Part shown: positions 712-22,001 of the stretch, one piece after another
Position numbering within the stretch: the first letter of the stretch is position 1
How the letters are laid out: every line of letters starts with the position of its first letter
Assembly: GCF_900104745.1 (NCBI RefSeq)
Contig: NZ_LT629732.1
Location: 3,459,981 to 3,523,980 of the forward strand
Direction: 5' to 3'
Length of the DNA: 64,000 nt
Origin: Actinopolymorpha singaporensis
Lineage (GTDB): Bacteria > Actinomycetota > Actinomycetes > Propionibacteriales > Actinopolymorphaceae
Position numbers and translations under genes: made by a program
Notes under the pieces: generated by a model
Databases searched by the model: none
What the model saw: only the letters and a program-made list of their open reading frames with translations
Told to the model about the DNA's origin: nothing

Positions 712-1827
712 GTGGAGCTTCGTACCGTCCTCCGGCACCGGCTGGCCACCCAGCGGCTGACCGGACCCCCGCTGCCCACCGCCGCCGACACGGTGCGCCT
801 GCTCACGTGCGTGCAGGCGCAGGAGCGCGAGCACGCGTGCTTCTCGCTCGCGTTGCGGAGCCGGGCGACCACGCTCGCGGACGTACGCGCCGAGCTCGAC
901 TCCGGTGCGTTCGTCCGCACCCACATCCTGCGGCCGACCTGGCACTTCGTCGCCGCGGAAGACCTGCGCTGGATACTGGACCTCACCTCGCCGCGAGTGG
1001 AACGCGTGCTCGCCGTCCAGCTGAGGCGGTCGTCGCTGGCCGAGCGGGACGTCGGCAGGGCGCTGGAGATCGTCGCCGAGGCGCTCGCCGGCCGCAACTT
1101 CCTCACCCGCAAGGAGATCGGCGCACGCCTCGCCGCGGCAGGGCTACCCGGGTCCGGCCAGGAACTCGGCAACCTGGTGATGGTTGCGGAGCTTCGCGGC
1201 GTGGTGTGCAGTAGGCCCATCCGCGGAGTCCAGCACACCTACGCGCTGGTGGACGAGGTGGTTCCGCCGACTCCCGCGCGCTCGCGGGAGGAGGCCCTGG
1301 CCGAGCTCGCCCGGCGGTTCTTCGGCGGCCACGGACCCGCCTCGATCAAGGACTTCACCCGCTGGTCCTCGCTGACGGTCACCGACGCCAGAGACGCGCT
1401 GGCCGACGTCGGCGACGGGCTGGAACGCGTGGACGTCGACGGCGTGCCGCACTGGTACGACCCGGCGCTGCTGTCCGGGCAGTCCTCCGCTCGGGCGGAT
1501 TCGACGGAGCCGCCCGGGTCGGGGACGCGCCGCGCACATCTCTTCCCGACGTACGACGAGGCGGTGCTGACCTATCCGAGCGTCAACTTCCCCTTGCCGC
1601 CGGAGTCACCGGCACCCGCCGCGCCGGACCAGTGGTCGGCGGCCGTCGTCGTGGACGATGTCCGGGTCGGCACGTGGAAGCGCACCGTCGGCCGGACCGC
1701 TGTCACTGTCGAGTCCTGGTTTCTCGGCACGCTCGACGACGAACAGTGCGGCCAGGTGGAGGCCGCCGCCGAACGCCTCGGTATCTTCCACGGCCTGCCC
1801 GTCCGGCACGTGGCCGGCCGATCGTAG
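712..1827 (+). CDS. Winged-helix DNA-binding domain protein (HTH_42/AlkZ-related family)
   Basis: A 371-residue protein of the winged-helix family that includes the DNA glycosylases AlkZ and YcaQ. It starts VELRTVLRHRLATQRL and carries the recurring LLTCVQAQ motif near residue 35, an ILRPTWHFV segment near residue 80 and FFGGHGPASIKDFTRWS near residue 205, all typical of the family. I chose the GTG at 712 because the conserved N-terminus begins there; the frame stays open upstream without similarity. Whether this member is a glycosylase or only binds DNA cannot be told here. It stands alone, read away from the leftward operon that follows. Confidence 0.75.
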   Translation: MELRTVLRHRLATQRLTGPPLPTAADTVRLLTCVQAQEREHACFSLALRSRATTLADVRAELDSGAFVRTHILRPTWHFVAAEDLRWILDLTSPRVERVLAVQLRRSSLAERDVGRALEIVAEALAGRNFLTRKEIGARLAAAGLPGSGQELGNLVMVAELRGVVCSRPIRGVQHTYALVDEVVPPTPARSREEALAELARRFFGGHGPASIKDFTRWSSLTVTDARDALADVGDGLERVDVDGVPHWYDPALLSGQSSARADSTEPPGSGTRRAHLFPTYDEAVLTYPSVNFPLPPESPAPAAPDQWSAAVVVDDVRVGTWKRTVGRTAVTVESWFLGTLDDEQCGQVEAAAERLGIFHGLPVRHVAGRS

Positions 1828-1859
1828 AGCACGCTGCGGGGCGCTCGCCGCAGGAGACC

Positions 1860-2411
1860 TCAGCCCGGGCCGGAGATCCAGTCCTCGACGTCCACGACGT
1901 CGGCCTGGCGCGGAAACACCTTCTCGGTGAGCACCCGGTGCACCTCCGGGTCGGGGTCGTAACACCCGTCGGCGAGCACGGTGAGCCGGTAGTCGAGGTC
2001 GGCCGCCTGGCGCAACGTGGACAGCACGACGCCGCTGGTGGCGATGCCGGTGAGGACCAGCCGGTCCACGCCCGTGGCGCGAAGGACCACGTCCAGGTCG
2101 CTGCCGGTGAACGCGCTCACACGCCGCTTGGTGATCACGACGTCGTCGGCCAGCGGCGCCACGTCGGGATGGATCGCGGCACCGGGATCTGCCGTGGTGA
2201 ACGCGGGCGGCGGGATGGCACCGAACGCCTTGTTCGCCGGCGACACCTCGGGGTGACCCGGACGGAATCCGACGACGACGTAGATCACCGGGATGCCGGC
2301 GCCGCGTGCGGCGTCGATCGCGCCGGCCACCCGGCGTACGTAGTGCGGATCCTCGACGCGGCCGACCATGGCGATCTGGAGGTCCATCACGAGCAGAGCG
2401 GGTCGGGTCAT
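1860..2411 (-). CDS. Isochorismatase/cysteine-hydrolase-fold protein lacking the usual catalytic Cys
   Basis: A 183-residue protein with the isochorismatase fold: LLVMDLQ near the N-terminus (family Asp), ITKRRVSAFTGSDLD in the middle (family Lys region), and GIATSGVVLSTLRQAADLDY where the nucleophile elbow should be. Cysteine hydrolases normally show a cysteine in the pattern T-x-x-C-V; here that place is valine, and the only Cys is far downstream in LADGCYDPD. It may therefore be non-hydrolytic or use other chemistry. Its ATG overlaps the stop of the upstream MFS gene by 4 bases, so it is the third gene of a MarR-MFS-hydrolase operon and probably acts on, or senses, the transported compound. 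Confidence 0.85.
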   Translation of the reverse strand: MTRPALLVMDLQIAMVGRVEDPHYVRRVAGAIDAARGAGIPVIYVVVGFRPGHPEVSPANKAFGAIPPPAFTTADPGAAIHPDVAPLADDVVITKRRVSAFTGSDLDVVLRATGVDRLVLTGIATSGVVLSTLRQAADLDYRLTVLADGCYDPDPEVHRVLTEKVFPRQADVVDVEDWISGPG

Positions 2412-3865
2412 GGTCGGTTGCCCTTCGGTGAGGAGATGTCGAGCGTGGACGAGGACGTGAGCGAGGACAGGGAGCGGTCCGCGACAGTCAGCACGAGGAA
2501 CCCGGCCGCGGCGGCGAGCATGAACCACGCCAGCCGGTGCAGCCCGGCTGTGTCGGCACGGTGGGAGAACAGCACACCGTTGGCGCAGGAGGCGACCATC
2601 GCACCGAGGTAGGTGAACGTACGCAGCAGGCCCGCCGAGGAGCCGATCCGGGCGGGGTCTGCCTGGTGGTACACGGAGTTCTGCAGGGCGAGGCTGTTCA
2701 GGCCCTGCGGTACGCCGAAGACGCAGGCGATCACGACGAGCAGCCAGACCGCGCTGCCGCCGTCGAGCAGGAAGAGCAGGGCGGAGGCGACGACCTGACC
2801 GACCGCACCGACCAGCAGTTTGCCGCGGATCTCCTTGCGGGGCCCGGTCGTGGTGGAGACCAGGATCGCGGTCAGGAAGATCGGGAACTGCGCCAGGCCG
2901 GCCTGGGACGCGGACAGCCCACGCCCCTCCTGCAGCCACTGGGTGTAGCCGTACAACGTGGAGTACGCCACGACGTAGGCGAGGAGAGTACGCGCGTACG
3001 TCAGGAGCAGGGGCAGGTTGCCGCCCAGCACCCGCACGTCGACGAACGGCTCGGGCGCCCGGCGCTCGCGGAGCACGAAGGCGACCGCGGCGACGACCGC
3101 GAGGACGGGGAGGTACCAGCGGTCGGCTCGTGGGTCCATCAGGAACAGCAACAACACCACGAGCGTCGCGGCGAAGCTGACGATGCCCGGCAGGTCGACA
3201 GCGGCGCCGGATCTGCGCTCGCCACGGGTTCCGGTGACCGGGGACTTCGGCAACCGCCACAGACCCAGCGTCAGCCCGGCCACCGCCAACGGGAGATTGA
3301 CGGCGAGGGTGGTCCGCCAACCACCGAGGCCGATGAGCAGCCCACCGAGCACCGGTCCGAGCACGGCGACCGTCTGGTTGGCGACCGCGAGCGCTGTCAG
3401 GACGCCGGCCGGACTGTTGTGTCCGGTACGCCCGGCCTCGCTGCGGATGAGGAACATCGCGGCCGGATAGCCCGCACAGGTGCCGAACCCCAGCAGCACC
3501 CGAGCGACAACGAGCACACCGAGGTTGGGTGCGAGGAGGCCGACCAGTCCGGCGACCCCGACGAGGGCCGTCCCGGCGAGATAGAGGCGCCGCGGCCCGT
3601 ACAGATCGATCAGCCGGCCGACGACCGGCTGCCCGATCGCGGTCGCGAGGTAGAGACCGGACACCAGCCACGCCGTCTGCGACGGCGGTGCGCCGAACGC
3701 CGCCCCGATCGGCACCAGCGAGACCGCGAGAATCGAGGAGTTGACCGGGTTCAGGATCGAACCCAGGATCATCGGGGCCAGCAGTCTTCGGTCGAAGGAC
3801 TTCGACCCGTCGTGGCCGGATCCCCGCCTGGACCGCAGGATGGTTCGGGCGGTCCTCGGCGTCAC
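2408..3865 (-). CDS. MFS drug/metabolite efflux transporter
   Basis: A 485-residue polytopic membrane protein of the major facilitator superfamily. It has LAPMILGSILNPVNSSILAV near the N-terminus, the loop 2-3 motif GQPVVGRLIDLYGPRRLYL, and about 14 hydrophobic segments as in proton-coupled multidrug exporters. I start it at the GTG at 3865, which shares 4 bases (GTGA) with the stop of the MarR gene; a longer frame exists but has no support. It also overlaps the downstream hydrolase-like gene by 4 bases, so the three are translationally coupled. The neighbouring MarR repressor suggests induction by its own substrate; the substrate is unknown. Confidence 0.88.
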   Translation of the reverse strand: MTPRTARTILRSRRGSGHDGSKSFDRRLLAPMILGSILNPVNSSILAVSLVPIGAAFGAPPSQTAWLVSGLYLATAIGQPVVGRLIDLYGPRRLYLAGTALVGVAGLVGLLAPNLGVLVVARVLLGFGTCAGYPAAMFLIRSEAGRTGHNSPAGVLTALAVANQTVAVLGPVLGGLLIGLGGWRTTLAVNLPLAVAGLTLGLWRLPKSPVTGTRGERRSGAAVDLPGIVSFAATLVVLLLFLMDPRADRWYLPVLAVVAAVAFVLRERRAPEPFVDVRVLGGNLPLLLTYARTLLAYVVAYSTLYGYTQWLQEGRGLSASQAGLAQFPIFLTAILVSTTTGPRKEIRGKLLVGAVGQVVASALLFLLDGGSAVWLLVVIACVFGVPQGLNSLALQNSVYHQADPARIGSSAGLLRTFTYLGAMVASCANGVLFSHRADTAGLHRLAWFMLAAAAGFLVLTVADRSLSSLTSSSTLDISSPKGNRP

Positions 3866-11582: not shown

Positions 11583-11695
11583 CGTGCACTGGCCCTCGGG
11601 AGATCGGCCGATCCTCGGGGGACTCTGCCGGTCCTGTCGAAGTGGTCGGCCGGTGGTTTCGGTAAGCCGGCTCCAATTCACCCCGTTCGAAGGTG

Positions 11696-11719
11696 GTTGG
11701 TATTTGGCCGCATGGGTAA
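11696..11719 (+). promoter_or_regulatory. Candidate SigB-type promoter of the hopanoid cluster
   Basis: GTTG (11696-11699), 14 bases, then GGGTAA (11714-11719). It lies 84 bases upstream of the dxs-like start and is the best promoter-like motif in the 227 bases between the whiB terminator and the cluster. Stress-sigma control would fit the membrane-protective role of hopanoids. The assignment is by motif only. Confidence 0.35.
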
Positions 11720-11803
11720 CGACCTTGTAGCCAAGATCAACCCTCGGACGTCGCGGTCAGCCGTACTCGTCCAGGCGGTCCTCACCGGCTCGACGAAGGA
11801 TCG

Positions 11804-12826
11804 ATGCGCATGCTCGACGACCTGCGAACTCCCGCCGATCTGCGGACGCTCGACATCGACCAGCCGGAGAGGCTGGCCCACCAGATCCGCGAGTTCCTGG
11901 TGGGGTCGGTGTGCCGGACCGGGGGCCACCTCGGATCCAACGTCGGCGTGGTCGAGTTGACGCTCGCCCTGCACCGGGTCTTCGAGCAGGCCGTCACCTC
12001 CGCCGCGGGGCCGGCCGTGGGCGGCTTCCACCCGGTCGTGAGCCTGTACGCGACGTTCGCCAACCGCGCCTTCGACCAGGTGCTGCTGGACGTCGGCCTG
12101 CACGGCTTGCCGGTCACCTTCGTCCTGGACCGGGCAGGCATCACCGGTCCTGACGGGCCGAGCCACCACGGGGTGTGGGACATCGCGATGCTGGGCATCG
12201 TTCCCGGCATGCGCGTGGCAGCTCCGCGCGACCCGGCGACGCTGCTGGAGGAGCTCGACGAGGCGGTCGCGACCGAGTCCGGGCCGACCGCTCTCCGTTT
12301 CCCGAAGGCCACCGCCGGCCCGGAGCTTGCGGCGGTGGAGCGGTGGCAGGGCGTCGACGTTCTTCGTCGGTCGCGCGGCCAGGAGGTGCTGCTGGTGGTT
12401 GCCGGGCCGTTGGCGGGCGCGGCGCTCGAGGCGGCCGGTCTGCTGGCGGCGGAGGGAACGGAGTGCACGGTGGTCGACCCTCGCTGGCTGCTTCCCGCCA
12501 ACCCGGTGTTGACGACGCTGGCCTGTTCGCACCAGGTGGTGGTGACGGTCGAGGACGGCGTGCGCGACGGTGGGTTCGGTCGGCGGCTGGCTGCCGAGGT
12601 CGCCGAGGCCGGGGCACGTCCCCGGATGCGTACTCTCGGCGTCCCGTCGTCCTACGTCGTCCACGGCGCGCGGTCTGACCTGCTCGCGCGGTTCGGCCTG
12701 GACGCGGAGGGTGTCGCGGCGGCTGTCCGGGACCTGCGTCCGCCCGTGCCCGCGGGTGAGCCGGAGGCACTGCCGGCGACCCGGGCGGACAGCTCGGTCC
12801 GCGCCTTCGCCGGGACCCTGAGGTGA
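11804..12826 (+). pseudogene. dxs: 1-deoxy-D-xylulose-5-phosphate synthase with a large internal deletion
   Basis: The 340-residue frame starts like a normal DXS (LVGSVCRTGGHLGSNVGVVE, ALHRVFE) and then jumps straight to the end of the pyrimidine domain (QAVTSAAGPAVGG, YATFANRAFDQVLLDV, LDRAGITGPDGPSHHG), running on to a complete C-terminal domain. Full enzymes are about 630 residues, so roughly 290 residues are missing, including the GDG-x-N thiamine-diphosphate site. The Glu of the conserved E-Q-H-A-V-T is kept as E-Q-A-V-T but the His is lost. The reading frame is intact across the junction. The product cannot be a normal DXS. It is first in the hopanoid cluster and overlaps hpnC by 4 bases. 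Confidence 0.85.
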
Positions 12827-13725
12827 CGGCGACCAGCGCCAAGGGAGCGGGCGGCGCCAGCGCAGTGGCCGGCGTCGAGGGGGCGGTTGGCGTCGGTGCG
12901 TCACCACTGGACAAGGCGGCGGGCGAGAACTTCCCGGTCGCGCTGCGCGTGCTGCCCCCGCGGCTTCGCCGGCACCTGAACGCGCTCTACTGCTACGCCA
13001 GGTACGTCGACGATCTCGGCGACGAGGCGCCCGGCGACCGGACCGCCGCGCTCCATGAAGTGGCCGACCAGGTCCGCCGGCTGTACGACGGCGCCGGCGG
13101 GGGTGCGGACGTGACCGACCCGGTGGTTGCCGGCCTGCGGCCCATGGTCGCCGAGGTGGGCGTACCGGCCGATCCGTTCCTGCGGCTGGTGGAGGCCAAT
13201 CTCGTCGACCAGCAGGTGACGAGGTACACCTTCGCGGAGCTGCTGGACTACTGCCGGCTGTCGGCGAACCCGGTGGGAGAGGTCGTACTCCACATCTTCG
13301 GCGTCGCGACGCCGGAGCGGATAGAGATGTCCGATCACCTGTGCACCGGACTCCAGTTGGTCGAGCACTGGCAGGACGTCGCCGAGGACCGCCGCAGTGG
13401 CCGGGTCTACCTCCCACAGGAGGACCTGCGGCTGTTCGGCGTCAGCGAGGAGGACCTGGACGCACCCCAGGCGGGTGAGGCGGTGCGGGCGTTGCTGGCC
13501 TTCGAGACCGGCCGTGCGCTGGCCTACCTCGAGGCAGGCGCCCTGCTGCTGCCGAGCCTGCGCGGGTGGGCCCGGCTCGCCGTGTCCGGCTACCTCGCCG
13601 GCGGTCGCGCCGCGGCGGCCGCCATCGCCCGGGCCGGACACGACACGTTGTCGGGGACGCCCAGGGCCGGTTCCCGGCAGGTCGCGGCAGCCTGGCTGCG
13701 AGCGAGCCTGCGGAGCCCGGGATGA
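12823..13725 (+). CDS. hpnC: Squalene synthase HpnC (presqualene-/hydroxysqualene-forming pathway)
   Basis: A 300-residue trans-isoprenyl diphosphate synthase-like protein that looks complete. The first Asp-rich motif reads YARYVDDLGDE, the second region QLVEHWQDVAEDRRSGRVYLP, as in the phytoene/squalene synthase fold. In the HpnCDE route HpnD makes presqualene diphosphate from two farnesyl diphosphates, HpnC converts it to hydroxysqualene and HpnE reduces this to squalene. The GTG at 12823 overlaps the dxs stop (GTGA), and its stop overlaps hpnD (ATGA). The first 28 residues are Gly/Ala-rich and probably disordered. Confidence 0.92.
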   Translation: MTATSAKGAGGASAVAGVEGAVGVGASPLDKAAGENFPVALRVLPPRLRRHLNALYCYARYVDDLGDEAPGDRTAALHEVADQVRRLYDGAGGGADVTDPVVAGLRPMVAEVGVPADPFLRLVEANLVDQQVTRYTFAELLDYCRLSANPVGEVVLHIFGVATPERIEMSDHLCTGLQLVEHWQDVAEDRRSGRVYLPQEDLRLFGVSEEDLDAPQAGEAVRALLAFETGRALAYLEAGALLLPSLRGWARLAVSGYLAGGRAAAAAIARAGHDTLSGTPRAGSRQVAAAWLRASLRSPG

Positions 13726-14591
13726 ACGACATCTCGAACGCCTACGACATCTGCGAGGAGATCACCCGCCGGGAGGCCCGGAACTTCTCGTACGGCATCA
13801 GGCTGCTCCCGCCGCCGAAGCGGCGGGCACTCAGCGCGGTGTACGCCACGGCCCGGCGGATCGACGACATCGGCGACGGCGACCTGCCCGCCGAGGAGAA
13901 GCTGCGGCGTCTGGCCGAGACCCGCAAGGCCATCTCCCACCTCGGCGCGGACGAGGCGACCCGGACCGACCCGGTGCTACTCGCCCTCGCCGACGCGGCG
14001 GCCCGCTTCCCGATACCGCTGGACGCCTTCGACGAACTCGTGGCCGGCTGCGAGGCGGACAGCCGCGGCGCGCAGTACGACACCTTCGACGACCTCGTCG
14101 GCTACTGCCAGTGCGTCGCGGGCTCGGTCGGCCGGCTGTCGACCGGCGTCTACGCGCCCGCTGCCTTGGCCCACGCCATGCCGCTCGCCGACACGCTGGG
14201 CATCGCGCTGCAGATCACCAACATCCTGCGTGACCTGCGCGAGGACCGCCAGATCGGCCGGATCTACCTGCCCCGGGAGGACCTGCGGCGCTTCGGCTGT
14301 TCACTCGACCTCGACGCGGCCGGTCGGCTGGCCGACCCTCCGGAACGCCTCGCCGCCCTGGTGCGGTTCGAGGCCGACCGGGCCGAGATCTGGTACCGAC
14401 GTGGGCTGACCCTGCTGCCGCTGCTCGACCGGCGGGCGGCTGCGTGCACCGCCGCGATGGCCGGTATCTACCGCAGGCTGCTGCGCCAGATCGCCCGCGA
14501 CCCCGAGGCCGTGCGCGCGGCCCGGCTGTCGCTGGGCACCAGGCAGAAGCTCGCCGTCGCCGTGCGCGCACTCGTCCGGAGGTCGGCATGA
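13722..14591 (+). CDS. hpnD: Presqualene diphosphate synthase HpnD
   Basis: A 289-residue protein of the squalene/phytoene synthase fold, apparently intact: ARNFSYGIRLLPPPKRRAL at the start, the first Asp-rich motif TARRIDDIGDG, QYDTFDDLVGYCQCVAGSVG in the middle and the second motif ITNILRDLREDRQIGRIYLP. It condenses two farnesyl diphosphates to presqualene diphosphate at the membrane. The 4-base overlaps with hpnC before and the hpnE remnant after show it sits in a coupled operon. Its product would need a working HpnE, which is not encoded here. Confidence 0.93.
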   Translation: MNDISNAYDICEEITRREARNFSYGIRLLPPPKRRALSAVYATARRIDDIGDGDLPAEEKLRRLAETRKAISHLGADEATRTDPVLLALADAAARFPIPLDAFDELVAGCEADSRGAQYDTFDDLVGYCQCVAGSVGRLSTGVYAPAALAHAMPLADTLGIALQITNILRDLREDRQIGRIYLPREDLRRFGCSLDLDAAGRLADPPERLAALVRFEADRAEIWYRRGLTLLPLLDRRAAACTAAMAGIYRRLLRQIARDPEAVRAARLSLGTRQKLAVAVRALVRRSA

Positions 14592-15013
14592 AGTGGGTCT
14601 TCGACCGCACCGACGCGGCCGGCGGCGACGGACAGTACCTCGTCGTGTCGCTGTCGGCGGCCGACGACGAGCTGAACCAGCCCGCCGCACAACTGCTGGC
14701 GGTCCAGTTGGCGGCGCTCGCCGACCTGTTCCCGGCAGCCCGCGGGGCCTGGGTGGTGGACGCGTTCGTCACCCGCGAACCCCACGCCACCTTCCGCCAG
14801 CGGGCGGGTACGGCGGCACTGCGCCCGGCGGCGTCGACCCGTTGGCCCGGCCTGGCGCTGGCCGGTGCCTGGACCCGTACGGGCTGGCCGGACACCTTGG
14901 AAGGCGCCGTCCGCAGCGGAGCGGCCGCGGCCGACCACCTGGGCGTCCCGAGGTCCCGGGCGAGGTCCCAGGCGGGATCGCCGGTGAGGTCTCAGGCGAT
15001 GGAGGGGACATGA
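14588..15013 (+). pseudogene. hpnE: C-terminal remnant of squalene-associated FAD-dependent desaturase HpnE
   Basis: Only 141 residues remain. They match the end of HpnE: KWVFDRTDAAGGDGQYLVVS, VTREPHATFRQRAGTAALRP and LALAGAWTRTGWPDTLEGAV, the last being the FAD-binding C-terminal signature. The N-terminal GxGxxG FAD domain and the substrate domain (about 300 residues) are absent. The start codon is still the ATG that overlaps the hpnD stop, so the deletion removed the region just after the start without breaking the frame or the coupling. The product cannot bind FAD normally. Confidence 0.88.
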
Positions 15014-16101
15014 ACCACGATCAGGCAACCCTGGAACAGCCCTTCGACCGTGAGCCGCCGCAGCGTCCGCGGTCGACGCCGGCACCGGTCACCGTGTCCG
15101 TGCTCGAGGAGGCCAGGCGGCTCACCGAACCCGTGATCCGAGCGGGACTGGACCGGCTGGACCCGGACACCCGGCACGCGTGCGGCTACCACCTCGGCTA
15201 CTGGGACGCCGACGGCAGCCCGCTCGACGCCGGCGGCAAGGGGGTGCGGCCGGCGCTGGCGGTGCTGTCCGCGAGGGCGGCGGGCGTGAGAGGTGGCGCC
15301 CCCCGGGCCGGGGTCGTGGCCGCGGCGGCGTGTGAGCTCGTACACAACTTCTCACTCCTGCACGACGACCTGATGGACGGCGACACCGAGCGGCGCCACC
15401 GTAAGACCGTCTGGGCACGGTTCGGACCGGCCTCGGCGATCCTGGCCGGCGACGCCATGCTCGCGCTCGCGAACGAGCTGCTGGCCGAGGCCGGCTCACC
15501 CACCACGGCGGCAGCGCTCGGCCACCTCAACCTGACCACCCGGCGGCTGGTGAAGGGACAGGCGGCCGACCTCGCGTTCGAGAAGCGGGCCCGCGTCACG
15601 CTGTCCGAGTGCCTGCAGATGGCCGAGGACAAGACCGGTGCGCTGCTCGCGTGTTCGGCGTCCCTGGGCGCGATGCTCGTCGGTGCGCCCGCGCGAACCA
15701 CGGCGGCGCTGGCCGACTACGGGGCTCACCTCGGTCTCGCCTTCCAGCTGATCGACGACCTCCTCGGCATCTGGGGGACTCCGGCGCGGACCGGCAAGCC
15801 GGTCTGGTCCGACCTGCGGGCGCGGAAGAAGTCCCTGCCTGTCGTCGTCGCGCTCGCCTCGGACCGCCCGGCGGGCGGTCAGTTGCGCCGGATGTACGCC
15901 GAGGGGGCGCTGCAGGACGAGGCCGCACTGGCGGAGATGGCGAACCTCGTCGATCGCGCGGGTGGCCGGGCCTGGACCGAAGCACGCGCCGAACGCGAAT
16001 CCGCGGCAGCGGTCGCCGCGCTCGCCGGTCTGGACGGGCCGGCCTCGGTGCGCGCCGAGTTGGCCGCCCTCGCCGAACTTCTGTGCAGGAGGACCTACTG
16101 A
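15010..16101 (+). CDS. Polyprenyl (farnesyl/geranylgeranyl-type) diphosphate synthase
   Basis: A 363-residue trans-prenyltransferase. KGVRPALAVLSARAAG holds the conserved GK-x-x-RP element, FSLLHDDLMDGDTERRHRKT the first Asp-rich motif DDxxD, VKGQAADLAFE the KG-Q-x-D element, and FQLIDDLLGIWGTPARTGKP the second Asp-rich motif. It elongates allylic diphosphates with isopentenyl diphosphate and would supply farnesyl diphosphate to HpnD. A GGAGGGG ribosome site precedes the ATG at 15010, which shares 4 bases with the hpnE remnant. Hopanoid clusters of streptomycetes have the same gene at this place. Chain length cannot be fixed from motifs alone. Confidence 0.9.
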   Translation: MNHDQATLEQPFDREPPQRPRSTPAPVTVSVLEEARRLTEPVIRAGLDRLDPDTRHACGYHLGYWDADGSPLDAGGKGVRPALAVLSARAAGVRGGAPRAGVVAAAACELVHNFSLLHDDLMDGDTERRHRKTVWARFGPASAILAGDAMLALANELLAEAGSPTTAAALGHLNLTTRRLVKGQAADLAFEKRARVTLSECLQMAEDKTGALLACSASLGAMLVGAPARTTAALADYGAHLGLAFQLIDDLLGIWGTPARTGKPVWSDLRARKKSLPVVVALASDRPAGGQLRRMYAEGALQDEAALAEMANLVDRAGGRAWTEARAERESAAAVAALAGLDGPASVRAELAALAELLCRRTY

Positions 16102-16102
16102 C

Positions 16103-16423
16103 GTGACCGTGCACCAAGCCCGACCCGGCGAGACGGCGGCACCGCCGGCGTCATCGACGCCACCTGTCCGCTGGTGAGCAAGGTGCACAGCGAGGTGCGC
16201 CGCTGCGGAGACCAGGGCGACAGCGTGGTGTTCATCGGGCACGCGGGGCACGAGGAGAGGAGCCCGGACCGTCGGCGTCACCGCCGGAGCGTCCGCGCCG
16301 GAGGCACTCGCCGACGGGGTCGTGGACGCACTCCGCGGCCTCGGCGCGGTCGACGTACAGGAACGCAGGATCACCATGGAGAACGTCCATTTCGCCACAC
16401 CGAAGGAGGTGCGCTCCGCGTGA
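16103..16423 (+). pseudogene. ispH: ispH (HMBPP reductase) remnant with two deletions and a frame change
   Basis: From a GTG at 16103 a few residues are followed, in another frame, by [20 protein letters not shown] and [11 protein letters not shown], a core IspH segment with one of the three cluster cysteines (DATCPLV). It then jumps to a third segment in the original frame, [20 protein letters not shown] and [13 protein letters not shown], the normal C-terminus. A full IspH is about 310-330 residues; only about 85 are recognisable, and two cluster cysteines are missing. The stop at 16421-16423 still overlaps the hpnH start by 4 bases. I read it as a decayed or misassembled last-step MEP-pathway gene. 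Confidence 0.85.
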
Positions 16424-17430
16424 GCATGCCGTTGCGCCAGTCCCTGAAGGTCGGAAGCTATCTCGTTCGGCAACACCTGAAGCGACGTGACAAGTTTCCG
16501 TTGCTGGTCGAGCTGGAGCCCCTCTTCGCGTGCAACCTGCAGTGTGCGGGGTGCGGCAAGATCCAGCACCCCGCCGACGAGCTGCGACGGCGCATGCCGG
16601 TGGAGCAGGCGCTTGCCGCCATGGAGGAGTGCGGCGCTCCGATGGTCTCGATCGCCGGTGGCGAGCCCCTCATGCACCCCGAGATCGACAGGCTGGTCGA
16701 CGAGCTCGTGAAGCGGAGGAAGTACGTCTTCCTGTGCACCAACGCGATGCTCGTACGGAAGTGGTGGGATCGTTACCACTTCAGGCCGTCCCAGTACTTC
16801 TCGTTCGTCGTCCACGTGGACGGGCTGAAGGAGCGGCACGACGCGTCGGTGTGCAAGGACGGTGTCTTCGACGAGGTGGTGGAGGCGATCAGGTTCCTGA
16901 AGGACAAGGGGTTTCGGGTCAACACCAACTCCACGTTCTTCAGCAACGACACGTCGCAGAACATCATCGACGTGCTGGACTTCCTCAACGACGAGGTCAA
17001 GGTCGACAACATGCAGATCTCGCCCGCCTACGCCTACGAGAAGGCCCCCGACCAGGAGCACTTCCCGGGCGTGACGGAGACCCGCGAGCTGTTCTCCAAG
17101 GCGTTCGCGGGCGGCAACCGGAAGCGGTGGCGGCTCAACCACTCGCCGCTGTTCCTGGACTTCCTGGAGGGCAAGGCCGACTTCGGCTGCACCGCCTGGG
17201 GAATCCCGAGCTACTCGCTGTTCGGCTGGCAGCGTCCTTGCTACCTCATGTCCGACGGGTACGCCGCGACGTACCAGGAACTCGTCGAGACCACCGACTG
17301 GGAGGCGTACGGCCGCGGTCGCGACGACCGCTGCGCCAACTGCATGGCCCACTGTGGGTACGAACCGAGCGCGGTCCTCGCCACGATGGGCTCACTGCGC
17401 GAGTCCATCCGCGCCGTCGCCGGCGGCTGA
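16420..17430 (+). CDS. hpnH: Adenosyl-hopene transferase, radical SAM protein HpnH
   Basis: A 336-residue radical SAM enzyme that looks complete: [20 protein letters not shown] at the start, the cluster motif [16 protein letters not shown] (CxxxCxxC), the SAM-contacting [11 protein letters not shown], and the C-terminal half with [20 protein letters not shown] and the cysteine-rich [15 protein letters not shown] typical of HpnH. It adds the 5'-deoxyadenosyl group to hopene (diploptene) to build C35 hopanoids. The GTG at 16420 overlaps the ispH remnant by GTGA. Its substrate requires a squalene-hopene cyclase, for which there is no gene in this window. Confidence 0.93.
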
Positions 17431-17589
17431 CCCCGCGGAACGCACTCCGCCAGACGGTGGTCCACCTCACCCGCCTGCTCCATCGTGAACCGTTCCAGAA
17501 GGTGACGGCCATCCAGCAGCCGGGTCACCGCCTCTGCCGGGTTGGAAACCCGCTGTCGCCGCAGGCCCCTGACGAATAGGCTCGCGCCC

Positions 17590-18533
17590 ATGACCGACGG
17601 CGACTGGAGGGATGGCGGGTTCAGGCAGCGTCGGCCCTCCGTGGAGACTCTCGCCTGGGTTGCGGCGTCGATGGGTCGGGGCAGTCGCGTCGTTGGCTGT
17701 CGCCGCTTGACCGGTGGCGCCTGCTCCGCCGTGAATCGGCTGACTGTCGAGCGACGTGGAACGCGAACGTTCGTCGTTCTGCGGCAGTACCCGGGCGGGC
17801 TTGGCCTGCAGGGGAGCCTGGAGAAGGAGATCGCCAACCTTGGTGTGGTGGCGGGAAGCGGGCTCCCGGTTCCGAGCATCCTGGCTACTGACGTTGCTGG
17901 TGCTTCGACGGGGGCGCGCCATCGTTGCTGATGACACGGTTGCCGGGGCATGTTCACCTCAGTCCGGCGGACCCTCGGTCGTGGATGACGAGGATCGCGG
18001 AGATTGCTGCACTGCTGCATTCCCTCGATCTCCCCGCGAAGATGTTCAGACCTTGGACGGATTCTTGGATCGCTCCTCTGGACGGGCTTCAGGTGCCGGT
18101 CGACGCCCAGAAGCCGGCCGTGTGGAAGGCAGCGTTCGGTGTCATGGCGGCGCCGCCGCCAAAGGACACTGCCGTCTTTCTGCACTGCGATCTCCTGCCT
18201 GTCAACATGCTGTGGTCGCGCGGGAGGATTACTGGACTGACCGACTGGAACTCCGTCCATCGGGGGGCGCGCGCGATTGACGTCGGGCACTGTCGGCGAT
18301 ACTTGGCGGCGCTCTACTCGCCCGAGTGGTCGGAGCAGCTTCGGTCGCTCTATGAGTCGATCGCCGGGGTGAGTCTCGATCCGTGGTGGGACCTGTATGC
18401 CCTGCTGCACTATGACGACAGCGGGTCGAAGTGGATCCGTGGTCAGGTCGCCGGGCGCCGTCCCGTCGATGTGGCCGGCATGACTTCCCGGGTCGAGGTG
18501 GCTGTCGAGACAGCGCTACGGCGCCTCGGATAA
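17590..18533 (+). pseudogene. Aminoglycoside-phosphotransferase-fold kinase, broken by one frameshift
   Basis: The first part (17590-17931) encodes VVGCRRLTGGACSAVNRLTV and a VLRQYPGG lysine-bearing strand, and stops after GASTGARHRC. The second part continues in the previous frame from about 17920 with SLLMTRLPGHVHLSPADP, FLHCDLLPVNMLW (catalytic loop, HxDxxxxN) and LTDWNSVHRGARAIDVGHC (metal-binding loop). Restoring a single base near 17915 rejoins a normal protein of about 314 residues. A TAGGCT box 7 bases before the ATG suggests a leaderless mRNA. The substrate is unknown. A sequencing error would produce the same picture. Confidence 0.75.
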
Positions 18534-18544
18534 CTGCGGGTCCC

Positions 18545-19447
18545 CTACCAGGTGGCCACCGCGGCGGAGGCGATCTCTTCGCGGAACTCCTGCGCCACCT
18601 GCTGCGAACGCCGGGCGAGCAGGAGTACACCACCGGCGACCAGGGCCATCATGACCCCCTGCAGCGCGGTGACCACCGGCCCGCTCGCGATGTCCTCACC
18701 GAGCCAGGTGGCGCCGAAGGCGACCGCCACGATCGGGTCGCCGATGGTGATGACCGCGGACGCCAGCGCACCGATCAGCCCGCTCTGGAAGGCGTTCTGG
18801 TTGAGCAGGAAGCCGGCCACGCCGATGACGGCGACGCCGTACAACTGCCACTTCGACCAGACCGTGCCGAGGTTGGACAGGTCGACGGTGGAGGCGAGTT
18901 CGCGGACCAGCCCGGCGGTGACGCCGTAGCAGACAGCGGTGGCGATCGCCAAGGGCATCACACGCAGGTCGCTGTGGACGAGCGCGGCCGCCACGAGACA
19001 CGCCGCGACGAGCCCGACCAGCACCATGCCGAGCGGTACGACGGCGGAGGAGCCCCTGGGGTGGGTCTCCTCGCTCGGCGATGCCAGCAGCAGGAAACCG
19101 GTCAGGCCCGCGATCGCCACCAGTGCTCCCAGCATCAGCCGGGCGTCGGGCAACTGATGGCGCATCGCGTAGGCGAAACCGATGTAGAACAACGTGCCGG
19201 TGACCAGCAGCGGCTGCACCAGCGCGAGCGGCGCGAAGTGCAGGGCGACCACCTGCAGGGCGAAGCCGCCGGCCGCGAAGATCACTCCCGCACGGAACGC
19301 GCTCATCTGGATGAGGTCGAGCAGCAGCCGCGGACGCAGCGCGCCGCGTTGTGGTGCCTGCCGCGCGGAGTGGTGCTGGAGCACACCGGCGGCGCCGTAG
19401 GCCGCCGCCCCCGCCAACGCACACAGAACACCGACGAGAGTACCCAT
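18545..19447 (-). CDS. DMT (drug/metabolite transporter) superfamily membrane protein
   Basis: A 300-residue protein with nine to ten hydrophobic segments in the EamA/NIPA-like arrangement: VGVLCALAGAAAYGAAGVLQ first, then LVQPLLVTGTLFYIGFAYAM, and a second half beginning near MPLAIATAVCYGVTAG with ALASAVITIGDPIVAVAFGA before the end. No signal peptide or extra domain is visible. It begins one base after the stop of the glycosyltransferase-acyltransferase fusion gene, so the two are co-transcribed. It might move a precursor or the product of that enzyme; this is inference from position. Confidence 0.8.
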   Translation of the reverse strand: MGTLVGVLCALAGAAAYGAAGVLQHHSARQAPQRGALRPRLLLDLIQMSAFRAGVIFAAGGFALQVVALHFAPLALVQPLLVTGTLFYIGFAYAMRHQLPDARLMLGALVAIAGLTGFLLLASPSEETHPRGSSAVVPLGMVLVGLVAACLVAAALVHSDLRVMPLAIATAVCYGVTAGLVRELASTVDLSNLGTVWSKWQLYGVAVIGVAGFLLNQNAFQSGLIGALASAVITIGDPIVAVAFGATWLGEDIASGPVVTALQGVMMALVAGGVLLLARRSQQVAQEFREEIASAAVATW

Positions 19448-19448
19448 C

Positions 19449-22001
19449 TCAGCCGGCAGCCCCCACCGCGACGGAGGGTTCGCGTGGTGTCTCGGCGGCT
19501 GCCATGAAGCTGGTGCGAAAGGCGTCCTTGACAACCCTGCGCTCGACCCCCAGGCCGCGGTCGAGGAGTACTCCCACACCGGCCACTGTGCCGGACCTGA
19601 CCACCCCGACGGTCAGCGGCACGCCGGAGGCGAGCGGAAGAACCGGGCACACGGCGCGCACGTCGGCGCCGGCGAACGTCCGTGGTCCCCGTGCGCCGGG
19701 CATGTAGGAAACGATCGTGTTGAAGAAGTGCCGGTTGTAGGTCGCTCGCGCGAAGCCGCGGTGCAGCGGGTGGGGAAGTTGCCCGGCCGCCCACATCACC
19801 ATCGCCGCCGCCACCGCCTCGCCCTGCCGGTCGTGCAGGCGGGTGCCGGCGCGGATCCTCGCGGTTCGCCCTGAAAGGGTGAGCGGTCCGGTGGGGAGGT
19901 CGACGGCAAGCGCGCCGGTCCAGTTTCCGGAGATCCGGTCGAGTTTCGGCGGCCGCATCGCCACCGGAAACATCGCCCGCAGCGGCCGGCCGGGCGTGAG
20001 CAGACCGGCTGGGCGGAGCAGCCGGTCGAGCGCGTCGGCCACCAGCGCCAGAACCGCCTCGTGCGGCAGGGCGTCGCAGGCGGTGGCGAGGTCGCGGATC
20101 CGCTTCCACGGCACCTCCACGGTGACCAGGTCCCGTTGCCCGGTCGGGGTCACGTGGTTGAGGGGATGACGCGGCGCGAGGCCCTTGCCCGCCAGCCGTC
20201 CGGCACCCCGCAGGACATGACCCGCACCGACCCGCGCCATACGCCGGCGACCAGCGGGTCGACGTTCGGTCAGCCCGTCGCCCGGCAGCGGGTCCATGAG
20301 CCGGTCGAGCAGGCCGAGTGCGGAGATGCCGTCGCCCTGGGCGTGGTGCAGCTTGACCGCGAAGGTGCTCCGGCCGTCGGCCTGGCCGGTCACCTGCAGG
20401 CCCCGCCAGGCGGGTGCGTCCGGCGGCATCCGGCGGGACCAGAAGTCGCTGACGGCTGCGCTGACGTCCTCCTCGCCCGCGCCCCCTCCCAGCCGCTGCT
20501 CCTCGACGTGGCTCCGGGCGTCGACCGAGTCCCGCAACAGCCAGCCCAGCGGGCGGCGTACGAGGACGCGGCGCATCGGCGGCAGGCCGCTCGCCCGGGC
20601 CTGCATGGTCCGGCGCACGTCCGCGGCGGTGACCGCCCGGCCGCCGGGCAGCGGGGCGAGGTCGAGGACCGCGCCCAACTCCTGGGCGTACGGCCCGGTC
20701 TCGACATGGGCGAAGAACGAATCCGGCGCCCGCATCGGCCAGGTCCGCTCCGCAAGGGCGGCTTGACGCGCAGGCGTGGAGAGAGTGGAGTCGGCCGGCC
20801 GGGGCGCCACGAGCGCGTGCAGGCCCGAGTCGAGGTCGTACCGCTCAAGGTGGCGCAACGTCGCGGAACGGAGTCTTCGCAGCGGCTCCCGTTCCTCCAG
20901 CACCGACCGTACGTACGACTGGAGCATCGCGAGGTCGGGGCACAGGTCGGTGAGACCCGCGACCACCATCAGGTTGGCGTTCGCCACGCCGTGCGCGGCG
21001 ATCGGGGAGGTCGTCACCACCGGCAGCGCGCTGGCCATTCCCTCCAGCGCGGTCGCCCCGCCCGCGTTGGTCACCAGGAGGTCCGCCGCCCGCATGAGAG
21101 TGGGCATCTGGTCGGTCCAGCCGAGGGGAAGCAGCCGCTCCCGGGGCAGGCCGAGCCGTTCGAGGCGTACGCGCGTCTGTTCGTTGCGCCCGCAGGCCAC
21201 CACGACGCAGACCTTGTCCGAGGCCTCCAGCAGGGCGGCCACCGAGGCGTCCGCGTCGCCGAAGGAGTAGGCGCCGCAGGACAGGAGCACGACGAAGGCG
21301 TCCGCCGGGAGATCCAGCAGGCGCCTGGCCTGCGCCTGGTCGCCGGGGGCGAACGCACGTACGACCGGCGGTGCACAGACCTCGACGTTCACGTCGGGTT
21401 CCGCGCAGCGGGCGAGAGCCACCGCGGTCTGGTGGACGACGAAGTTTGCGTCGAGTTCGGGGTAGACCCAGAACGGGTGTGGTGCGAAGTCGGAGACCCA
21501 GCACGCGGTGTGGACGCCGAGCCCGCGGTGGCGGCGCAGCCAGGCCAGCCCGGAACTGCCGAGCGGGTAGGTGGAGAGCACCAGGTCGGGCTCGAAGCGG
21601 TCGATCTCGGTGCGCAGCCGCCGCCCGGCCCAGGAGCCGGTGAACCTCTTGGAAGCCTGGGCGAACCAGCGGTGCCGCCACTCACTGGCGTAGAAGAACT
21701 CGTACAGCCAGGGGGTGCGCTCGACGTTCGAGACGTAGATGGAGCGGAACGCCCGGCCCACGCCCGGCCCCATCACGTCCAGCGTGTCGACGCGGTGGCA
21801 CTCGCTCCCCGGCCACAGCCGCTGCACTGCCTCCTCGAGCGCGTTGGCGGTGGAGTTGTGGCCACCGCCCATGTCGGCCGAGACCAGCAGGACGCGATGG
21901 GGGCCCTCATCGGCGTGGGCGCCGACGGAGATGCCGACCCGGGCACCGTTTTGGGCACCGTTTTGGGCACGACCGTTCGAGCGGGCCGGGGGATGGCTCA
22001 T
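19449..22001 (-). CDS. Fusion of MGDG-synthase-like glycosyltransferase and wax ester synthase/DGAT domain
   Basis: An 850-residue two-domain protein. Residues about 33-410 are a GT-B glycosyltransferase of the MGDG-synthase/MurG type: RVLLVSADMGGGHNSTANAL, CWVSDFAPHPFWVYPELDAN and the nucleotide-sugar site LVTNAGGATALEGMASALPV. Residues about 422-850 are a wax ester synthase/diacylglycerol acyltransferase: MRAPDSFFAHVETG, the catalytic HHAQGDG near residue 550 (HHxxxDG), ISGNWTGALAVDLPTG and FNTIVSYMPGARGP, all family features. It could glycosylate and acylate the same lipid. The first 30 residues contain an NGAQNGAQNGA repeat. I start at the ATG at 22001; the frame continues upstream without similarity. 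It heads an operon with the DMT transporter. Confidence 0.82.
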   Translation of the reverse strand: MSHPPARSNGRAQNGAQNGARVGISVGAHADEGPHRVLLVSADMGGGHNSTANALEEAVQRLWPGSECHRVDTLDVMGPGVGRAFRSIYVSNVERTPWLYEFFYASEWRHRWFAQASKRFTGSWAGRRLRTEIDRFEPDLVLSTYPLGSSGLAWLRRHRGLGVHTACWVSDFAPHPFWVYPELDANFVVHQTAVALARCAEPDVNVEVCAPPVVRAFAPGDQAQARRLLDLPADAFVVLLSCGAYSFGDADASVAALLEASDKVCVVVACGRNEQTRVRLERLGLPRERLLPLGWTDQMPTLMRAADLLVTNAGGATALEGMASALPVVTTSPIAAHGVANANLMVVAGLTDLCPDLAMLQSYVRSVLEEREPLRRLRSATLRHLERYDLDSGLHALVAPRPADSTLSTPARQAALAERTWPMRAPDSFFAHVETGPYAQELGAVLDLAPLPGGRAVTAADVRRTMQARASGLPPMRRVLVRRPLGWLLRDSVDARSHVEEQRLGGGAGEEDVSAAVSDFWSRRMPPDAPAWRGLQVTGQADGRSTFAVKLHHAQGDGISALGLLDRLMDPLPGDGLTERRPAGRRRMARVGAGHVLRGAGRLAGKGLAPRHPLNHVTPTGQRDLVTVEVPWKRIRDLATACDALPHEAVLALVADALDRLLRPAGLLTPGRPLRAMFPVAMRPPKLDRISGNWTGALAVDLPTGPLTLSGRTARIRAGTRLHDRQGEAVAAAMVMWAAGQLPHPLHRGFARATYNRHFFNTIVSYMPGARGPRTFAGADVRAVCPVLPLASGVPLTVGVVRSGTVAGVGVLLDRGLGVERRVVKDAFRTSFMAAAETPREPSVAVGAAG
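21941..21970. repeat. 12-bp tandem repeat within the N-terminal coding region of the fusion gene
   Basis: GGGCACCGTTTT occurs twice head to tail (21941-21952, 21953-21964) followed by a half unit. In the protein it yields the NGAQ tetrad repeated in the disordered N-terminus. It is in-frame and probably a neutral slippage product. Confidence 0.7.

Follow-up and report, generated by a model that had tools for sequence, protein, structure and literature searches.

A glycosyltransferase-acyltransferase fusion of actinomycete hopanoid gene clusters and its proposed role in forming acylated glycosyl-hopanoids

Which lipid would be handled by a protein that carries a lipid glycosyltransferase (GT) and a fatty acyltransferase (AT) in one chain? 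This question is raised by a gene in a 64,000-nucleotide stretch of the Actinopolymorpha singaporensis genome (NCBI RefSeq assembly GCF_900104745.1, contig NZ_LT629732.1, forward-strand positions 3,459,981 to 3,523,980; hereafter the window), a genome that consists of one contig of 6.4 Mb. The GT-AT fusion gene is followed by a gene for a DMT-family membrane protein, and its surroundings in related genomes identify it as a gene of the hopanoid clusters of Actinomycetes, hopanoids being the bacterial counterparts of cholesterol. The features on which the argument rests are, in window positions:

19449 to 22001, minus strand: GT-AT fusion gene, 850 amino acids (open frame, Pfam and NCBIfam domains, kept in relatives)
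20808 to 21896, minus strand: GT-B lipid glycosyltransferase domain, residues 36-398 (PF06925, PF04101, profile match to 9wde/4wyi, Foldseek match to 4x1t)
19503 to 20744, minus strand: WS/DGAT-type O-acyltransferase domain, residues 420-833 (PF03007, PF06974, profile match to 6chj/7nxg, Foldseek match to 6chj)
20328 to 20348, minus strand: HHAQGDG acyltransferase catalytic motif, residues 552-558 (sequence reading and conservation counts)
18545 to 19447, minus strand: DMT-family membrane protein, 300 amino acids (NCBIfam NF038012 over cut-off)

The fusion frame runs uninterrupted on the minus strand from an ATG at 22001 to a TGA ending at 19449 (850 amino acids). Pfam places MGDG_synth (PF06925) at residues 48-195 (53.7 bits against a cut-off of 25) and Glyco_tran_28_C (PF04101) at residues 253-349 (23.8 bits against 22), a GT-B domain of the MGDG synthase / processive diacylglycerol glucosyltransferase type, followed by WS_DGAT_cat (PF03007) at residues 425-583 (53.1 bits against 23.6) and WS_DGAT_C (PF06974) at residues 692-832 (35.1 bits against 20.7). 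The NCBIfam model TIGR02946 scores 157.7 bits with the fusion and 160.9 bits with the AT half alone, both below its cut-off of 309.95, and PRK13609 (diglucosyl diacylglycerol synthase) is matched by the fusion far under its cut-off. Neither the fusion nor its GT half has an NCBIfam match at E <= 0.01 to HpnI or HpnB, for which NCBIfam models presumably exist. A preliminary description of this DNA, made from its letters and open reading frames, had read the gene as an MGDG-synthase-like GT-B domain fused to a complete WS/DGAT domain with an HHxxxDG motif; the domains and the intact motifs are borne out. The fusion is confirmed to be a genuine single protein, since a joining error or a chance open reading frame is ruled out by conservation of the frame across families with substitutions throughout.

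Residue conservation was counted over 25 aligned fusions. In the GT half, GxGH, PHPFW, NAGGA..LE and HG..NA are invariant (25/25), and the GGGH of the fusion aligns with the GGGH of MGD1 in the profile match. In the AT half, H553, D557, G558, G692 and N693 are invariant (25/25), and 24 of the 25 sequences retain H552. The best profile matches of the fusion are the processive diacylglycerol beta-glucosyltransferase 9wde, 6chj, 7nxg and MGD1 (4wyi). An AlphaFold2 model built on the 25-row alignment has a mean pLDDT of 86 and a pTM of 0.84. In Foldseek searches with this model, the N-terminal half finds MGD1 4x1t and 4wyi best (TM(target) 0.77), indicating a GT-B fold like that of MGD1, and the C-terminal half finds WS/DGAT structures best (6chj, TM(target) 0.73-0.75; 7nxg, 0.74).

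The evidence that ties the fusion to hopanoids is its gene neighborhood and its co-occurrence with HpnH, the adenosyl-hopene transferase. When the neighbors at 29 distinct loci were clustered, the families that followed the fusion itself were the DMT family, an SDR family, HpnH, the HpnG/IspH group and squalene-hopene cyclase (SHC); in Micromonospora rubida, for example, the order is fusion > SDR >< HpnH < IspH < HpnG < SHC. HpnH scores over cut-off in 28 of the 29 genomes behind the fusion loci. In the remaining genome, an assembly of 2.4 Mb, the contig ends within HpnH, whose C-terminus directly follows the fusion, DMT and SDR genes. Among 250 Micromonosporaceae genomes, with both domains required at E <= 1e-60, 17 encode both (in one frame in 15 and in separate frames in G780 and G939) and 45 encode HpnH, all 17 being among these 45 (Fisher p 1.2e-14, with shared ancestry ignored in this test and in the next). 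In ten of the 17 the distance to HpnH is no more than 15 kb, and in G780 it is 15.3 kb; three further genomes with only one of the two halves are all HpnH-positive. As a control, the canonical WS/DGAT of the source genome was sought in the same sample and found in 32 of 250 genomes, of which 3 are HpnH-positive (p 0.22) and none has HpnH on the same contig, which rules out general WS/DGAT content as the driver of the link. A sample of 249 Pseudonocardiaceae genomes, in which a fusion was defined as one match spanning both domains, yielded HpnH in 104 (103 over cut-off), the fusion in 74, and HpnH in 73 of these 74 (p 1.2e-36), including G1050 only by way of a contig-end fragment. This rule misses G1147, which has two matches in one 915-amino-acid frame, and it retains six genomes in which the match contains a single stop codon. 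Sixty-six of the 74 fusions lie within 15 kb of HpnH, with a median gap of 2.4 kb, and 17 of the 21 genomes that by the same rule have one half only are HpnH-positive. Of 56 fusion loci (36 of a first set and 20 Pseudonocardiaceae drawn from the 74), 44 have a hopanoid gene no more than 10 kb away (24/36 and 20/20); neighbor counts over these loci are lower bounds, as some stretches end at a contig or window edge. The fusion is thus a hopanoid-cluster gene of Actinomycetes. The interpretation in the preliminary description is supported in part: the acylated glycolipid that it suggested holds up as an idea, and what it missed is the context that points to a particular lipid, namely the hopanoid clusters.

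The DMT gene is a further frequent companion. Its ATG at 19447 is separated by one base from the end of the fusion stop at 19449, as the preliminary description had stated in placing both in one operon. In 54 of the 56 loci a DMT gene is found no more than 4 kb from the fusion, and in 38 it is directly downstream. The protein scores 74.3 bits with NF038012 (DMT_1, cut-off 50), falls under the Pfam cut-offs for DMT families, and is modeled as all-helical with a low mean pLDDT of 60. Both things that the earlier description had asked for in other genomes, the same domain order and the DMT gene, are found, the former at 24 of the 25 loci described next.

An order-wide sample of 293 genomes contained 218 with some match; among the matches listed, the whole fusion was present in 7 genomes, all of the source organism's own family. 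Within that family the two-domain frame occurs in 7 of the 8 genomes listed, comprising the source, three at 85-88% identity and three at 49-53%, and the closest named relative found is Actinopolymorpha rutila (88% identity across the fusion). An alignment of these seven served as query for a contig scan that returned 25 loci, 24 of which match both halves and one of which is cut by a contig end. Their hosts are Actinopolymorpha, Micromonospora, a Micromonosporaceae bacterium, Actinocatenispora, Kutzneria, Sciscionella, Gandjariella, Intrasporangium, a Dermatophilaceae metagenome-assembled genome (MAG), and MAGs labelled Amnibacterium and Microlunatus. No second full-length fusion appeared among the matches listed from an even sample of the phylum (396 genomes). 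The fusion is thus frequent in the Micromonosporaceae and Pseudonocardiaceae samples and patchy elsewhere, and the possibility that it is an oddity of one genus is ruled out by the 25 loci and the two family samples. Eight Pseudonocardiaceae genomes (G955, G1114, G1123, G1126, G1148, G1166, G1172 and G1174) have, next to the fusion on the other strand, a further GT-like match, which in most of them is interrupted by stop codons.

In midpoint-rooted trees, the fusion GTs form one clade (100/100) and the fusion ATs form one clade (98/98), each with two rows of separately encoded domains (SPLIT) inside. Six changes of the fusion label on these trees stem from duplicate rows labelled OTHER (L107, L108, L130), from the contig-cut L065 in the GT tree, and from the SPLIT rows. 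Stand-alone ATs of hopanoid clusters, together with those of the Kribbella-like group f3, are sister to the fusion ATs on the AT tree, and the stand-alone GTs of hopanoid clusters are more distant and not sister to the fusion GTs. The simplest reading of these trees is one fusion event with later spread. In G780 (L097), where GT and AT are separate, the AT nests among fused Micromonosporaceae ATs (97/89) and the GT is basal (93/89); this pair may reflect a later fission, although its GT is basal. In G939 (L098, 7008-9478, minus strand) an adjacent GT and AT lie in different frames.

Taken together, these observations are best accommodated by a bifunctional hopanoid-tailoring enzyme of Actinomycetes whose product would be an O-acylated glycosyl-hopanoid moved by the DMT protein, a reading to which we give a probability of roughly 60% and in which we infer the acceptor, the sugar, the acyl donor, the order of steps and the transport. 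SHC, HpnH and HpnG would provide a C35 hopanoid whose side chain is a polyol. With a nucleotide-sugar as donor, the N-terminal GT-B domain would glycosylate one of the side-chain hydroxyls, and the fused WS/DGAT domain would use acyl-CoA to esterify a hydroxyl, either on the sugar or on the side chain, with a fatty acid. The protein encoded by the tandem DMT gene would carry the resulting O-acylated glycosyl-hopanoid to the outer leaflet.

Several observations weigh against this proposal. On the side of the protein, the best-ranked profile match of the GT for which an activity is named, 9wde, is a diacylglycerol glucosyltransferase, and the AT fold is also common to condensation domains of nonribosomal peptide synthetases, which rank lower in the Foldseek results. 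The motifs that we take to be those named PLW and ND in WS/DGATs are poorly kept: ND is present in only 1 of the 25 aligned fusions, and at the PxW position P is found in 17, W in 18 and the intervening L in 1. On the side of the genomes, 14 of the 104 HpnH-positive Pseudonocardiaceae have no fusion match at E <= 1e-50, 12 of the 36 first-set loci have no hopanoid gene within 10 kb (some of these stretches are cut short), 5 of the 7 fusion genomes of the source family have no HpnH within 10 kb of the fusion, and the co-occurrence tests take no account of common descent. Finally, 13 Pseudonocardiaceae genomes have a stand-alone GT close to that of the fusion. In all seven of these that were fetched (L160-L166) the GT gene stands beside a DMT gene, with neither a hopanoid nor an AT match in the stretch, so the GT is able to act without a hopanoid cluster around it. 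In the source genome itself, a distant lipid GT paralog stands divergent from another DMT gene (L040, 886-2004 on the minus strand and 1820-3226 on the plus strand), the latter 31% identical to that of the window. Together with the seven stretches, this paralog indicates that the GT-DMT pair exists outside hopanoid clusters too.

The alternative that survives best, although we consider it clearly less probable, is that the two activities serve separate molecules, the GT making glycosyl-hopanoids and the AT hopanoid esters, and that they are fused only for co-expression. Its strength lies in the surroundings of HpnH in 20 fusion-free, HpnH-positive Micromonosporaceae, with a truncated first stretch extended by the next one. 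Eleven carry a stand-alone GT (34-37% identical to that of the window) with an adjacent DMT gene and seven a stand-alone AT (30-37% identity) with a DMT gene; the remaining two, on contigs of 12 and 15 kb, show neither. The GT-only and AT-only sets do not overlap. Each reaction can therefore stand alone, the two look like alternatives, and such clusters show that coupling of both reactions is not required. Pairs of GT and DMT genes in hopanoid clusters without an AT (L110, L112-L115 and L167-L173) suggest, on gene content, glycosyl-hopanoids without an acyl group, and in G739, which has the fusion elsewhere, a further GT-DMT pair lies in a separate hopanoid cluster. In f3, every one of the seven genomes whose AT locus was fetched has the AT between the SDR gene and hpnC and no DMT match (L134-L139 and L179; e.g., L135, 9829-10971), an arrangement suggestive of hopanoid esters without sugar. 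These f3 clusters are the only AT-only clusters without a DMT match (7/7); the AT-only clusters of Micromonosporaceae have one in 7 of 7 (28-32% identity), and the idea that the DMT gene accompanies the GT and not the AT was dropped. A glycosyltransferase between the AT and hpnC in AT-only clusters was also considered and set aside: in L134-L136 the open reading frames there end, by eye, in a PucR-like helix-turn-helix. With GT alone and AT alone each found in hopanoid clusters, the two look like alternative or joint hopanoid decorations that are joined in the fusion. Retention of the fusion across families with the motifs of both halves intact suggests a gain from coupling and so speaks against separate products, as does the AT of G780 nested among its fused relatives, which suggests that separation came later, though the basal position of its GT tempers the point.

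Less probable again is an enzyme that glycosylates diacylglycerol, or acylates glycosyl-diacylglycerol, with the clustering reflecting joint membrane remodeling, for example during sporulation. The similarity of the GT profile to 9wde, together with the matches to MGD1 and, far under cut-off, PRK13609, favors such an acceptor, as do the GT-DMT pairs outside hopanoid clusters (7/7 stretches) and the paralog divergent from another DMT gene. This explanation leaves unaccounted for the stand-alone GT or AT genes in hopanoid clusters (18/20 Micromonosporaceae, and the AT in 7/7 f3), and the co-occurrence with HpnH (73/74 and 17/17) is tighter than co-regulation needs. The finding of a stand-alone GT or AT in 18 of the 20 fusion-free clusters thus lowered our estimate for diacylglycerol as acceptor, raised that for two separate products, and left that for a single acylated glycosyl-hopanoid unchanged. 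That the WS/DGAT half, without wax or triacylglycerol chemistry, is merely a hopanoid- or lipid-binding domain beside a GT that alone is catalytic is very improbable, for the scarcity of ND (1/25), the loss of the W of PxW in 7 of 25 and the faster divergence of the AT half (30-47% identity against 53-63% for the GT half, outside four close Actinopolymorpha genomes) stand against H553, D557 and G558 in 25/25, H552 in 24/25 and an intact predicted fold.

A further argument for a hopanoid-related role comes from the window itself, in which the fusion and DMT genes are convergent with the remains of a hopanoid cluster on the plus strand:

16417 to 17430, plus strand: HpnH, adenosyl-hopene transferase, convergent with the DMT gene (TIGR03470, 497.7 bits against a cut-off of 225)
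16150 to 16417, plus strand: two IspH (LytB) remnants in different frames (tblastn, query residues 95-130 at 72% and 259-311 at 58%)
15013 to 16101, plus strand: polyprenyl diphosphate synthase (NCBIfam matches, none over an equivalog cut-off)
14582 to 14941, plus strand: HpnE C-terminal remnant, profile positions 310-428 of 430 (TIGR03467, E 3e-34, below cut-off as expected for a fragment)
13716 to 14591, plus strand: HpnD, presqualene diphosphate synthase (TIGR03465, 276.7 bits, slightly under the cut-off of 278.6)
12823 to 13725, plus strand: HpnC, squalene synthase (TIGR03464 over cut-off)
11804 to 12826, plus strand: DXS-like protein, C-terminal half (TIGR00204, best stretch at profile positions 363-612 of 616)

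No match to SHC or HpnG was found within the 64-kb window, and an open reading frame at 11678 to 13417 on the minus strand that was considered as SHC is spurious. A complete cluster (SDR, HpnH, IspH, HpnG, SHC, hpnD and hpnC) lies 1.6 Mb away in the same genome (L129). Further stages of loss are seen in close relatives, A. rutila retaining HpnH, hpnD and hpnC, and two others having kept nothing but hpnC and hpnD next to the fusion. The region from 11804 to 17430 is thus a second, decaying hopanoid cluster in which the fusion and DMT genes stayed intact, and decay of the redundant core genes around these two argues that they do something that the main cluster does not. With NF041169, the model for family 2 encapsulin cargo, the polyprenyl synthase reaches 402 bits, short of the cut-off of 450. 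A gene of the phosphotransferase family (APH fold) is split over two overlapping frames at 17542 to 18533 on the plus strand, between HpnH and the DMT gene; the second frame matches PF01636. A neighboring cytochrome region, inspected by eye, gave no functional clue.

The SDR gene that recurs in these neighborhoods is of interest in its own right. It lies within 3.5 kb of the fusion in 48 of the 56 loci (L099 being a weak match at 36%), for example at L051, 8514-9263, and equivalents, and the copy of the source genome is at L129, 8685-9434. In hopanoid loci that lack the fusion, an SDR 49-62% identical to that of Micromonospora is found in 28 of 30 (23 in the first stretch and 5 in the next), or in 29 of 31 with L179 included; at the two exceptions, L116 and L124, contigs end close by. 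The enzyme that converts ribosylhopane to bacteriohopanetetrol 'has not yet been established', in the words of a passage in PMC12583986. As a near-constant neighbor of hopanoid loci, the SDR is a good candidate for bacteriohopanetetrol formation, as a putative reductase of ribosylhopane.

A broader proposal can be put forward only tentatively, at somewhat less than even odds: about seven actinomycete families, three of them represented only through MAG labels, would make O-acylated glycosyl-hopanoids, an undescribed class of membrane lipids and a bacterial equivalent of acyl steryl glycosides, by means of the bifunctional protein and a dedicated DMT flippase, relatives that have just one of the two domains would make simpler glycosyl-hopanoids (GT) or acyl-hopanoids (AT), and the recurring SDR would be the ribosylhopane reductase. 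If this is true, a common class of actinomycete lipids has been overlooked, perhaps because acylated glycosides would escape routine hopanoid analysis, and its fused two-step enzyme comes with a candidate flippase at hand. The hopanoid context turns a general glycolipid idea into a specific, testable proposal.

The available parts of a Frankia paper (PMC12501873), a review of actinomycete terpenoids (PMC10301674), a Kutzneria genome report (PMC4210621) and a fatty-acid review (PMC6222795) name no such enzyme, although the Kutzneria report does assign one cluster to hopanoids (PMC4210621). Judged by titles or the beginnings of abstracts, searches of the open-licence literature listed no paper on the fusion or on hopanoid-linked WS/DGATs, subscription journals lying mostly outside that scope. 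This agrees with the statement in the preliminary description that no pathway of this form had been described; an O-acylated glycosyl-hopanoid and its fused enzyme are probably nowhere described in that literature.

Among known systems, MGD1 and the processive diacylglycerol glycosyltransferases of the UgtP/YpfP type share their fold and signature motifs with the GT of the fusion, which differs from them in its hopanoid context, its fused AT and an acceptor that is probably a triterpenoid alcohol. We take that type to be family GT28 of CAZy. The AT has the fold and the HHxxxDG motif of WS/DGATs such as 6chj and 7nxg and differs in its ND motif (1/25), its TIGR02946 score (157.7 against 309.95) and its own clade in hopanoid clusters. 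Acyl steryl glycosides of eukaryotes and Helicobacter, in which a sterol-like lipid is glycosylated and then acylated, are a parallel to the proposed lipid and not a relative of it, the latter having a hopanoid core and a fused enzyme. Bacteriohopanetetrol phenylacetate is known from Frankia, and Streptomyces coelicolor produces C35 hopanoids. In alphaproteobacteria, according to the portion of PMC12583986 available, HpnI glycosylates bacteriohopanetetrol, and HpnI, HpnK and HpnJ lead from it via bacteriohopanetetrol-N-acetylglucosamine to bacteriohopanetetrol cyclitol ether. HpnI resembles the proposed enzyme in being a hopanoid-pathway GT that glycosylates bacteriohopanetetrol (PMC12583986); the difference is that the fusion GT is of another family (no HpnI or HpnB match at E <= 0.01), is joined to an AT and is followed by a DMT gene. 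Closest in chemistry is the N-acylglucosaminyl-bacteriohopanetetrol known from Alicyclobacillus, a hopanoid with both a sugar and an acyl chain that is mentioned in the accessible text of PMC8537080 along with possible acylation of the hopanoid side chain in some species. In that lipid, as described there, the acyl group is on nitrogen, the producer belongs to the Bacillota and no gene is named (PMC8537080), whereas for the actinomycete clusters a WS/DGAT-type O-acyltransferase is predicted.

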